NCBI GenBank assembly: GCA_001777915.1
Contig: MFFN01000003.1
Coordinates: 62,001-126,000 of the forward strand
Length of the DNA: 64,000 bases
Direction of reading: 5' to 3'
Origin: Candidatus Edwardsbacteria bacterium RifOxyA12_full_54_48
Lineage (GTDB): Bacteria; Edwardsbacteria; AC1; EtOH8
A model generated the notes under the pieces. The model saw only the letters and a list, made by a program, of their open reading frames with translations, was not told the DNA's origin and ran no database searches. Of the stretch, positions 10,614-51,384 are shown one piece after another. Made by a program: the position numbers and the translations under genes. Position 1 is the stretch's first letter. Each line of letters begins with the position of its first letter.

Positions 10614-11404
10614 CACCGCCCTGCCGGGGGAAGCCAGTCGTTCAGCTATGCTGGCACGCCGGATGAAGCCTGCTTGATCGGCAGGCCCATGGGGCGAATT
10701 CTGGCGGAGAGACTGCCGACTTCGTCAATAAAGCAATAATAACAGCAGACTATGTCGGCCAAGGGGATCTGTTTGATAATAAATGCTTATTGATAAATGC
10801 GCGTCCCGAACCACCTTTTAAATATCTTTCAAATGCGAACGCTGCCTCATGATCCTGAAAACAGCAATACCAAACGACTTCAAAAGGGCCTTTATCTTTT
10901 GTAAATTCCGATTCCCCCTGATTATGTTCTTCTAATCGGTGATTTAGATTTGTGGTGCACCCTACGTATGACTTCTTCTTTTTAGGATTCTGTAAAATAT
11001 ATACAAAATATTCCATTGTTGTTTATTGCACGGTTATTTTACAGTTTCTGCCTTGTCTGCCAAACGTAAACTAGTAGGTATAAATCCTTTGCCCTGTCCT
11101 GGCTTGTCAGACGAAGCCTGCTGTTATTTGAGCCCTCTTGGGCGAAGTCTGCCGACTACATCCTGATGAGCCTTACTAAAAGCAGGGCGGTTTCGTCACC
11201 CAAGGGCGGAGAGACAACCTCCTTACCTGGGAAATAAAAGTCTGGCCTGCCAGACGAAGCCTGCTGTTATTTAAGCCCCCTTGGGCGTAGTCTGGCGGAG
11301 AGACTGGGATTTTGCACCTTCGGCGCATCCGCCGCCGCTTTGCCTCCCCTTTTCTTGCAGGCGGAGAACCCTTCCGCTCCGCTATCCTGGGTTCAAACTA
11401 TAAT
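10614..11404. repeat. Degenerate repeat cluster carrying tRNA-Ser fragments around a GIY-YIG gene
   Basis: A unit containing 'gaagcctgct', 'gggcgaa/gta' and 'tctggcgga' occurs at about 10665-10716, 11105-11158 and 11248-11310. The 22-base end of the unit at 11291-11312 is identical to 11404-11425, which is the 3' end of the real tRNA-Ser gene; 10701-10716 repeats 16 bases of it. An inverted copy of the tRNA T-arm lies at 11383-11398. A block at 11327-11371 shares GGGTTCTCCGCC and AAGCGGCGGCGGAT (on the minus strand) with the tRNA-Gln locus at 50965-51009. Confidence 0.7.
10750..11016 (-). CDS. Solo GIY-YIG domain endonuclease
   Basis: An 88-residue protein that is essentially one GIY-YIG nuclease domain: FVYIL near the N terminus, SYVGCTTNLNHRLEEHN with the second motif and catalytic arginine, a conserved FE.YLKGGSGR segment with the metal-binding glutamate, and a short tail. 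Proteins of this size (UvrC N-terminal-like) are common in FCB and candidate-phylum genomes and their biological role is not established. It lies between copies of the tRNA-Ser 3' end rather than in an operon. A second family member is at 51061-51303. Confidence 0.85.
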   Translation of the reverse strand: MEYFVYILQNPKKKKSYVGCTTNLNHRLEEHNQGESEFTKDKGPFEVVWYCCFQDHEAAFAFERYLKGGSGRAFINKHLLSNRSPWPT

Positions 11405-11405
11405 C

Positions 11406-11493
11406 TGGCGGAGAGACTGGGATTTGAACCCAGGATACCTTGCGGTATACACGCTTTCCAGACGTGCTCCTTCGGCCACTCGGACATCTCTCC
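11406..11493 (-). tRNA. tRNA-Ser (anticodon GGA)
   Basis: On the minus strand the acceptor strands GGAGAGA and TCTCTCC pair, followed by discriminator G and an encoded CCA. The anticodon loop CTGGAAA gives GGA. A long variable arm (TATACCGCAAGGTA) and the T-loop GTTCAAAT are as expected for tRNA-Ser. The 3' end is repeated nearby at 11291-11312 and 10701-10716. Confidence 0.95.
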
Positions 11494-50673: not shown

Positions 50674-50721
50674 ATTCGCTGATCTTTGGATTGAAATAAA
50701 TTTCCGGACCGGGAAACCGAC

Positions 50722-50826
50722 GGTTGACAGTAGGTCGTCGCGTTCCCTGCTGTTAGGCAGGAAACATCTCCATGCGGCTTACTTATAGCTTGACTATTGC
50801 AAGCAACCTGTTGTCAGCTTTTTTAT
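50722..50826 (+). ncRNA. Candidate structured RNA or extended 3' UTR with intrinsic terminator
   Basis: Bases 50722-50737 pair with 50804-50819 in a 16-position stem with one mismatch (C50736 with A50805) and several G-U pairs. Inside, GTTCCCTGC and GCAGGAAAC (50742-50765) form a nine-position hairpin with one mismatch, and CTTG/CAAG near 50790-50803 may form another. The closing stem runs directly into a T-run (TTTTTTATTT). Many G-U pairs keep the stem while altering sequence, which favours RNA function. It resembles no family I know (not SRP RNA, 6S or tmRNA). No clear promoter was seen, so it may be the 3' UTR of spoVG. Confidence 0.5.
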
Positions 50827-50852
50827 TTCCCCCGGCACGGCTTAACCCTGGT

Positions 50853-50959
50853 TAAAATATTCAAGACCGGCCAGAGCCGCAAGTTTTTGGACAAAGTAAT
50901 AGGATAAAAATATTCGGGGGTCGTCCAATTGGCAGGACACCAGCCTTTGGAGCTGAGAT
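50853..50959 (+). pseudogene. Truncated duplicate: 3' end of GIY-YIG gene plus first 46 bases of tRNA-Gln
   Basis: This stretch parallels about 51246-51355 with a handful of differences. It holds the last codons of the GIY-YIG gene (encoding KTGQSRKFLDKVIG-like sequence) and tRNA-Gln bases from 50914 through the anticodon arm, then diverges into 'taccttgggttctccgcc'. The T-arm and 3' acceptor strand are absent, so no functional tRNA results. Confidence 0.85.
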
Positions 50960-50964
50960 ACCTT

Positions 50965-51009
50965 GGGTTCTCCGCCGGCTGAAATGATACAAGTGAAGCG
51001 GCGGCGGAT
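50965..51009 (+). repeat. Shared motif of the two GIY-YIG/tRNA loci
   Basis: GGGTTCTCCGCC (50965-50976) and AAGCGGCGGCGGAT (50996-51009) recur in the same order, at similar spacing, on the minus strand at 11327-11371 near the tRNA-Ser. In both loci the motif lies upstream of the GIY-YIG gene in its orientation. Confidence 0.75.
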
Positions 51010-51060
51010 CTGCCGTCGCCCTACTGCAAAAACTAACTGCCGGCAGAGAGTCCCTGAAAA

Positions 51061-51303
51061 ATGTCATATTTTGTTTATGTTTTAAAAAGCATCTCAGTTG
51101 AAACAAGATATATCGGTTCCAGCGCAGACATCAACGAAAGATTAGTAGCGCATAATAATGGAAAATGCAAATATACCAGAAACCGGCGCCCGTGGGTTTT
51201 GGTCTATAGCGAAGAATTTGCCACACTGGCTGATGCCATGAAACGCGAAAGATATTTGAAGACCGGCCAGGGCCGGGAGTTCTTGGATAAAGTAATAAAA
51301 TAA
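51061..51303 (+). CDS. Solo GIY-YIG domain endonuclease
   Basis: An 80-residue single GIY-YIG domain: YFVYVLKSI, TRYIGSSADINERLVAHNNGKCKYT with the conserved arginine, RPWVLVYSEEF and a final KRERYLKTGQGREFLDKVIK. It is related to the 10750-11016 protein but clearly diverged. It ends six bases before tRNA-Gln, and a fragment of its 3' end is repeated 390 bases upstream. AT-richer than the following genes. Confidence 0.87.
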   Translation: MSYFVYVLKSISVETRYIGSSADINERLVAHNNGKCKYTRNRRPWVLVYSEEFATLADAMKRERYLKTGQGREFLDKVIK

Positions 51304-51309
51304 AAATAT

Positions 51310-51384
51310 TCGGGGGTCGTCCAATTGGCAGGACACCAGCCTTTGGAGCTGAGAACCAGGGTTCGAGTCCCTGCCCCTGAGCCA
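51310..51384 (+). tRNA. tRNA-Gln (anticodon TTG)
   Basis: Acceptor strands TCGGGGG and CCCCTGA pair (U1-A72 is typical of tRNA-Gln), discriminator G and encoded CCA. The anticodon loop CTTTGGA gives TTG. T-loop GTTCGAGT is normal. A truncated copy lies at 50914-50959. Confidence 0.94.

Follow-up and report, generated by a model that had tools for sequence, protein, structure and literature searches.

Small GIY-YIG nuclease genes and T-loop double hairpins at tRNA genes of Candidatus Edwardsbacteria suggest a little-known class of selfish element

In the stretch of Candidatus Edwardsbacteria DNA analysed here (64,000 nucleotides, hereafter the window), two tRNA genes were found to be accompanied by a partial copy of themselves, by a gene for a small solo GIY-YIG endonuclease and by a short double-hairpin element, here called X, which lies in the T-loop of the broken tRNA copy. 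These arrangements look like the traces of selfish elements of a little-known class, by which essential genes are attacked and yet made whole again, and we think it likely that they represent free-standing homing-endonuclease elements of tRNA genes together with non-autonomous hairpin derivatives. A wider proposal is advanced only tentatively, namely that such miniature, integrase-free mobile elements occur domain-wide, with GIY-YIG enzymes specialised for individual tRNA genes, and that in one phylum they spawned non-autonomous double hairpins in the T-loops of about 20 different tRNA genes, where each has taken on its host's T-stem and one tRNA is always left in working order.

The Gln locus (50853-51384) was found to contain the following features:

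50860..50907, + strand: 3' remnant of a former GIY-YIG gene copy (direct repeat of 51256-51303, 92% identical)
50914..50958, + strand: broken tRNA-Gln, first 45 nt, same as in the intact copy; X interrupts its T-arm
50965..51054, + strand: T-stem 5' strand GGGTTC, double-hairpin X, T-stem 3' strand GAGTCCC (covariance-model match)
51061..51303, + strand: solo GIY-YIG endonuclease gene, 80 aa, Gln sub-clade (PF01541 E 2.6e-14; tree)
51310..51384, + strand: intact tRNA-Gln(TTG) (ARAGORN)

It was claimed in a first-pass annotation of the window that the end of the nuclease gene and the first 46 bases of tRNA-Gln are repeated upstream, so that the gene lies between a broken and an intact tRNA copy. 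This description was borne out, with 45 nt as the length of the tRNA part: a 99-nt direct repeat (50860-50958 against 51256-51354, 92% identical, with the complete copy 396 bp downstream) comprises the end of the GIY-YIG gene and the start of tRNA-Gln. The repeated nuclease tail would be a leftover from an earlier round of insertion. The intact enzyme keeps the invariant residues Y6, Y17, G19 and E63 and the near-invariant R27 of the alignment, its pN/pS against the G001 counterpart is 0.29, and no curated NCBIfam match was found for it. Upstream of the locus, 5' of tRNA-Gln, a conserved hairpin-rich stretch with a T-run at its end was noticed at 50715-50835 (+); at least six genomes of the family carry a counterpart upstream of tRNA-Gln, with apparent compensatory changes and no Rfam match, and it is possibly an undescribed small RNA or leader.

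The Ser locus (10651-11493), read from the tRNA, contains:

11406..11493, - strand: intact tRNA-Ser(GGA) (ARAGORN)
11366..11397, - strand: fold-back, TTTGAACCCAGGATA (the tRNA-Ser T-arm region in reverse complement) then GGGTTC (15-nt perfect inverted repeat)
11306..11371, - strand: GGGTTC, element X and the beginning of the second tRNA 3' half (covariance-model match)
11288..11312, - strand: second copy of the tRNA-Ser 3' end, T-loop through CCA
11249..11293, - strand: palindrome of a second family, AGACTNCGCC..GGCTTCGTCTGGC, directly 3' of the tRNA 3' copy
10750..11016, - strand: solo GIY-YIG endonuclease gene, 88 aa (PF01541 E 2.1e-16; tree)

In the tree the Ser enzyme shares a sub-clade with a Ser-GCT-linked enzyme of another genome of the family (G003), and it has a weak match to the phage family phrog_314 'homing endonuclease' (E 1.9e-6), the Gln enzyme having none. 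Degenerate further copies of the second palindrome lie at 11099-11154 and 10651-10706. Members of this family were recorded at these two places, at 11242-11297 and also at G000:C4:957846, G000:C4:958300 and G000:C2:8167 (G000 being the window genome); only four exact copies exist in the genome, and the sites are tRNA 3' copies or flanks of GIY-YIG genes.

It was also claimed that GGGTTCTCCGCC and AAGCGGCGGCGGAT recur in the same order at the two loci, beside different tRNAs and diverged nucleases. This holds at 50965-51009 (+) and 11327-11371 (-), and the two open reading frames both match PF01541 and fall in separate sub-clades. Each half of the motif is unique within the window; the two halves together were found at these two places only in the 2.74 Mb genome, and nowhere in a reversed control. 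The motif is part of X, which measures roughly 55-100 bp, and a second hairpin follows it, ending near 51054 at the Gln locus and near 11306 at the Ser locus. From these observations a single element type had been proposed, made of nuclease, motif and partial tRNA, which targets tRNA genes while leaving one working copy. The targeting and the working copy were supported; the fixed unit was not, as the duplicated tRNA part is a 5' one at the Gln locus and a 3' one at the Ser locus, the two nucleases belong to different sub-clades, few X copies have a nuclease gene near them, and the hairpins at tRNA-linked GIY-YIG genes of other phyla are different ones.

An alignment of 17 X cores, in which the second-hairpin loops of the Gln and Leu types were trimmed by hand, supported two adjacent hairpins with a conserved GCGRC bulge: 92% of cells are paired, seven pairs have changed on both sides, and the covariation score is 0.208 against 0.117 for shuffled alignments and at most 0.070 when the structure is slid. 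The Gln copy (G000:C3:112965-113054, covariance-model E 2.4e-14) has a fold z of -5.2, and its minimum-energy fold is a single long hairpin; as a structure for X this fold was rejected, having zero pairs with changes on both sides and no covariation. The Ser copy (G000:C3:73306-73371, E 6.6e-17) folds no better than shuffles. No Rfam family matching X was found.

X sits where a T-loop would be opened between positions 56 and 57, in the order GGGTTC, X, (G/A)A(A/G)TCCC. The T-stem on either side has no fixed sequence and matches the neighbouring tRNA (for Tyr AGGTTC..GAATCCT, for Phe CAGTTC..AACTCTG). Two mirror layouts were recognised. In layout U the order is tRNA 5' half, X, remnant of the T-stem 3' strand, GIY-YIG gene and intact tRNA, as at the Gln locus of the window, in G001 and G005, and at the Gln-CTG genes of G001 and G003. 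In layout D, found at the Ser locus of the window and many others, the order is intact tRNA, fold-back, X and tRNA 3' half to CCA, and the fold-back often has as its left arm the T-arm region of the same tRNA in reverse complement. Both layouts occur together at Gln-CTG of G001 (L117), and tandem doubles were seen among the D units (L166 Ser, L214 and L215 Ala, L227 Glu, L229 Met).

The distribution of X was followed in ten genomes of the family (G000-G009) and, with a covariance model, in 193 genomes, where strong matches were confined to Edwardsbacteria. There were 51 strong places (E up to 1e-8), in G000, G001, G002, G003, G005 and G008, and 46 of them lie within 300 bp of a same-strand tRNA, against about 1.3% expected; four of the remaining five are at contig ends. 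X is thus not a general dispersed palindromic repeat, whose copies would be scattered irrespective of gene class; a common repeat with no preference for tRNA or GIY-YIG genes was what the first-pass annotation had named as fatal to its proposal. Some 20 tRNA species bear X, namely Ser (four anticodons), Gln (two), Ala (three), Gly (three), Arg (two), Met, Leu, Tyr, Val, Glu and Phe. The model includes three T-stem pairs and may be biased toward T-arm contexts; a pattern restricted to the X core, which avoids this bias, gave 29 matches in the family, 28 of them on X copies known at tRNA halves. The nine exact copies of GGGTTCTCCGCC...AAGCGGCGGCGGAT in the family are all at tRNA genes, if the copy at the start of G003:C8 is counted with the contig end bearing tRNA-Ser from which it continues. 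Only about a fifth of the X copies have a GIY-YIG gene within 1 kb, so that X and the nuclease are linked yet separable. Strong X is absent from four of the ten genomes, among them G004, G006 and G007, which do have GIY-YIG genes.

The exact-pattern matches that lie at tRNAs in named genomes belong to Candidatus Edwardsbacteria / UBP2. Those in Nanopelagicales, Rhizobiales and a viral contig have no tRNA within 300 bp and look like GC-rich chance, and the weak model matches outside Edwardsbacteria are mostly short dispersed TCCGCC..GGCGGA hairpins, with the exception of a T-loop case at tRNA-Pro (L190, genome G064). In the window genome one X copy (L220, G000:C5:129946-130034) is joined to a decayed Gln-CTG 3' half, with no tRNA in the stretch examined; its setting resembles the Gln-CTG locus of G001, and it is perhaps an orphan left after tRNA loss or move. 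On contig C11 of G003 (L166 and L131) three X copies, one 114-bp tandem double included, and a GIY-YIG gene crowd into about 1 kb beside tRNA-Ser(TGA) and tRNA-Ser(GCT). Since several assemblies break at or beside X (G003:C8 start, G003:C11 end, G002:C1 start, G005:C17), the counts per genome are lower bounds.

Comparison with relatives shows which tRNA half is the native one. In G002, a genome of the same genus, tRNA-Ser and tRNA-Gln lack X, and both loci are thus represented by empty sites. In G003 the DNA 3' of the second tRNA-Ser 3' copy matches the DNA 3' of the plain G002 tRNA; therefore the downstream half is native, and the half that completes the working tRNA arrived with the insertion, as in integrative elements. 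In a census of the tRNA genes of G000, eight were found to have a downstream copy of exactly their final 20 nt, from the T-loop to CCA, whereas tRNA-Gln alone has a 5' copy upstream. The intervening DNA is 57-347 bp long and, in the loci read, carries an X-like hairpin at its end; these intervals, the window loci included, hold no integrase and have no room for one. Housekeeping genes lie on both flanks of the window. Nearly all tRNA species of G000 are single copy, and the intact tRNA-Gln(TTG) (51310-51384) and tRNA-Ser(GGA) (11406-11493) are the sole genes found with their anticodons; the intact copies are therefore probably essential. In these loci the tRNA gene is divided at a loop, the element supplies the part that makes it whole, and the native end is displaced.

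Like X, the nuclease genes are tied to tRNA genes. Of the 55 solo GIY-YIG stretches placed in the ten genomes, 16 have a tRNA no more than 400 bp away and a further two have one at 1.1-1.3 kb, every linked stretch being on the tRNA's strand (about 2.4% expected within 500 bp, p 1e-13). A tree of 54 of the enzymes has one clade (98/97) that holds 15 of the 16 linked members, its only other member being cut off by a contig end, and the sub-clades follow tRNA type; on the other side of the tree 1 of 38 is linked, which is the background rate. The same genomes have a large group of unlinked solo GIY-YIG genes (L105, L106, L109, L111, L115-L122 and others). Enzyme pairs gave pN/pS of 0.16-0.35, and the protein is therefore under purifying selection.

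A similar linkage was found beyond the phylum, among 78 solo GIY-YIG genes of many other families, taken as the strongest PF01541 matches and not as a random draw. Within this set 27 lie no more than 500 bp from a tRNA (p 3e-24), each of them on the strand of that tRNA, which brings the tRNA-linked total, with the two at 1.1-1.3 kb, to 45 of 45 on the tRNA's strand. At 15 of these loci the nuclease gene has direct partial copies of the linked tRNA next to it; some are 5' parts on the upstream side (Met, Asp, Pro, Gly, Lys and Arg, for example), others are 3' parts on the downstream side (Ser, Leu, Asn, Asp), and at Ala there are both. The Arg locus L321 has two tandem nuclease copies and resembles the Gln locus of the window. 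In many of the broken copies a local perfect hairpin (TCCCGATGGTTCGGGA, TCCGCCGGAGGCGGA and CCGCCTTTTGGCGG, for example) replaces the anticodon arm. Of the 15 broken copies, 12 contain an inverted repeat of 6 bp or more, against 30% of background stretches, which is moderate evidence, as at least one (L276) is the native variable arm of a tRNA-Leu and some others are not junction hairpins.

In a tree of 128 proteins most of the tRNA-linked enzymes fell together. One clade of 40 (97/96) has 35 tRNA-linked members, and two of its five unlinked members adjoin tmRNA and one lies at a contig end; outside the clade 7 of 88 are linked (Fisher p 4e-19). Five of the six Asn-linked enzymes form a group, although they come from four families, Edwardsbacteria among them; the five Gln enzymes of Edwardsbacteria and the three Phe enzymes likewise form groups, and the clade appears partly sorted by tRNA type across phyla; the trees rest on 70 columns and their deep order is unsure. 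In one genome (L314, G172) two tandem GIY-YIG genes of this clade were seen directly downstream of a tmRNA gene.

We propose that each small GIY-YIG enzyme is a specialist for a single tRNA type and would cut the gene of that tRNA in a loop, either the T-loop at 56/57 or the anticodon loop, and that recombinational repair would copy the element and a partial tRNA copy into the break. One tRNA would thereby be regenerated, and the displaced half would persist as a fragment beside a hairpin, X in Edwardsbacteria and other palindromes elsewhere, which would give the two mirror layouts of 5' fragment, X, nuclease and intact tRNA, or intact tRNA, fold-back, X and 3' fragment. The TTC/GAA of the T-loop and the arms around it form inverted repeats and might be a plausible target for a small dimeric nuclease. 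As the intact tRNA keeps the presumed target loop, self-cutting must somehow be avoided. Most X copies have no nuclease nearby, which speaks against homing; such units may have spread across many tRNA genes in trans, by way of shared T-arm sequence. X itself might be a trans-mobilised cargo hairpin, might keep the broken copy from being cut again or, in layout U, might serve as a leader of the nuclease gene.

Tyrosine-integrase islands split and restore tRNA genes by the same logic and at the same sub-sites, the anticodon loop and the T-loop (PMC4383910), and there too the downstream half is the native one, so it might be asked whether the 20-nt T-loop-to-CCA repeats are att cores of islands whose bodies were deleted, with X as a conserved island end. 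We regard this as rather unlikely, given the short intervals, in which no integrase was seen, the housekeeping flanks of the window and the internal hairpins of the fragments. Layout U, moreover, duplicates the 5' half, which is rare in integrase islands (159/3919; PMC4383910), and both the one-strand linkage of the GIY-YIG genes and their sorting by tRNA type would be left unexplained. That X is a host functional RNA or regulatory element of tRNA genes, acting in processing, in termination or as a tRNA-like decoy, with the GIY-YIG genes as bystanders or users of X as a leader, is in our judgement quite unlikely. Its covarying double hairpin and conserved bulge, its retention in vertical descent and the complementarity of the fold-back arm to the tRNA T-arm would agree with such a role; its patchy presence among close relatives, the lack of strong matches in four of the ten genomes, the tandem doubles and the Ser copy that folds no better than shuffles would not, and in several D loci a terminator-like hairpin and T-run separate the tRNA from X.

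Chance decay, by which tandem tRNA duplications would have collected dispersed palindromes in the redundant copy, with the GIY-YIG genes nearby by accident, is already disfavoured and seems to us very unlikely. Although tRNA fragments are common in prokaryotes (PMC9897764) and short TCCGCC..GGCGGA hairpins are dispersed away from tRNAs in some other genomes, the junctions described here are exact and repeated, X is confined to T-arms in Edwardsbacteria, and neither the same-strand rule, nor one mostly tRNA-linked clade, nor selection on the enzyme would be expected. A self-splicing intron was rejected as well: no Rfam match to a group I or other self-splicing intron was found, and the anticodon arm is lost or replaced in several broken copies, from which removal of the insert would not restore a tRNA.

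Homing into tRNA genes thus remains the reading that we prefer. Integrases that carry kilobases of DNA are known to split and restore essential tRNA genes; here elements of 0.1-0.4 kb, with an 80-residue nuclease or none, appear to do so. If this is true, many orphan tRNA fragments would be explained, a large clade of unnamed small GIY-YIG proteins would gain a function, very small natural nucleases with differing tRNA-gene preferences would be at hand, and the question of how selfish DNA attacks essential genes without death of the host would become testable. No description of such elements on bacterial chromosomes was found in the open-licence full-text literature. We group them with the free-standing homing-endonuclease elements, and there is a real chance that X makes up a separate kind.

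Insertions of short hairpins into genes, RNA genes included, are known from the Rickettsia palindromic elements and the mitochondrial double-hairpin elements; X in Edwardsbacteria differs from these in being confined to tRNA T-arms and in coming with duplicated tRNA parts. Judged by published description, the closest precedent would be SegB of phages T4 and T6, a free-standing GIY-YIG homing endonuclease that adjoins tRNA genes (PMC2988022, PMC13096335) and cuts inside them at the motif RAWTSGAAC (PMC13096335), which on the other strand, GTTCSAWTY, can by our own reading be taken as the T-loop consensus. Breaks made by SegB give rise to tandem repeats of truncated segB and tRNA, by way of the homology that the 3' end of segB shares with the 5' region of the tRNA (PMC13096335), and the repeat at the Gln locus, a nuclease tail and a tRNA 5' half, has the same form. 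As in SegB-like elements, the gene lies at or beside its presumed target, relatives carry empty alleles (in G002 for both loci), and an intact catalytic domain under purifying selection is present. SegB differs in belonging to phage genomes, in its larger protein and in having neither a split tRNA with a regenerated copy nor an X hairpin; the enzymes described here have 70-100 residues, lie on bacterial chromosomes, mostly one per tRNA type, and lack the extra DNA-binding region usual in SegB-like enzymes.

The mobile ORFs of fungal mitochondria that carry duplicated gene ends, in Allomyces atp6 and in Glomus atp6, atp9, cox2 and nad3 (PMC3630166), are alike in that an endonuclease element supplies a replacement end and the native end is left downstream; theirs are mitochondrial protein genes, whereas here bacterial tRNA genes are affected, in 5' and 3' versions and with hairpins. 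Like the tyrosine-integrase islands found by Islander, the elements described here split and restore a tRNA at the anticodon loop or T-loop and leave a fragment at the far end (PMC4383910), but they have no integrase, measure 0.1-0.4 kb against at least 2 kb, bear X or another hairpin at the fragment and commonly duplicate the 5' part. Island finders accept only stretches of 2 kb or more that carry an integrase, and loci of the present kind are discarded by these filters (PMC4383910), which may explain how they came to be overlooked.
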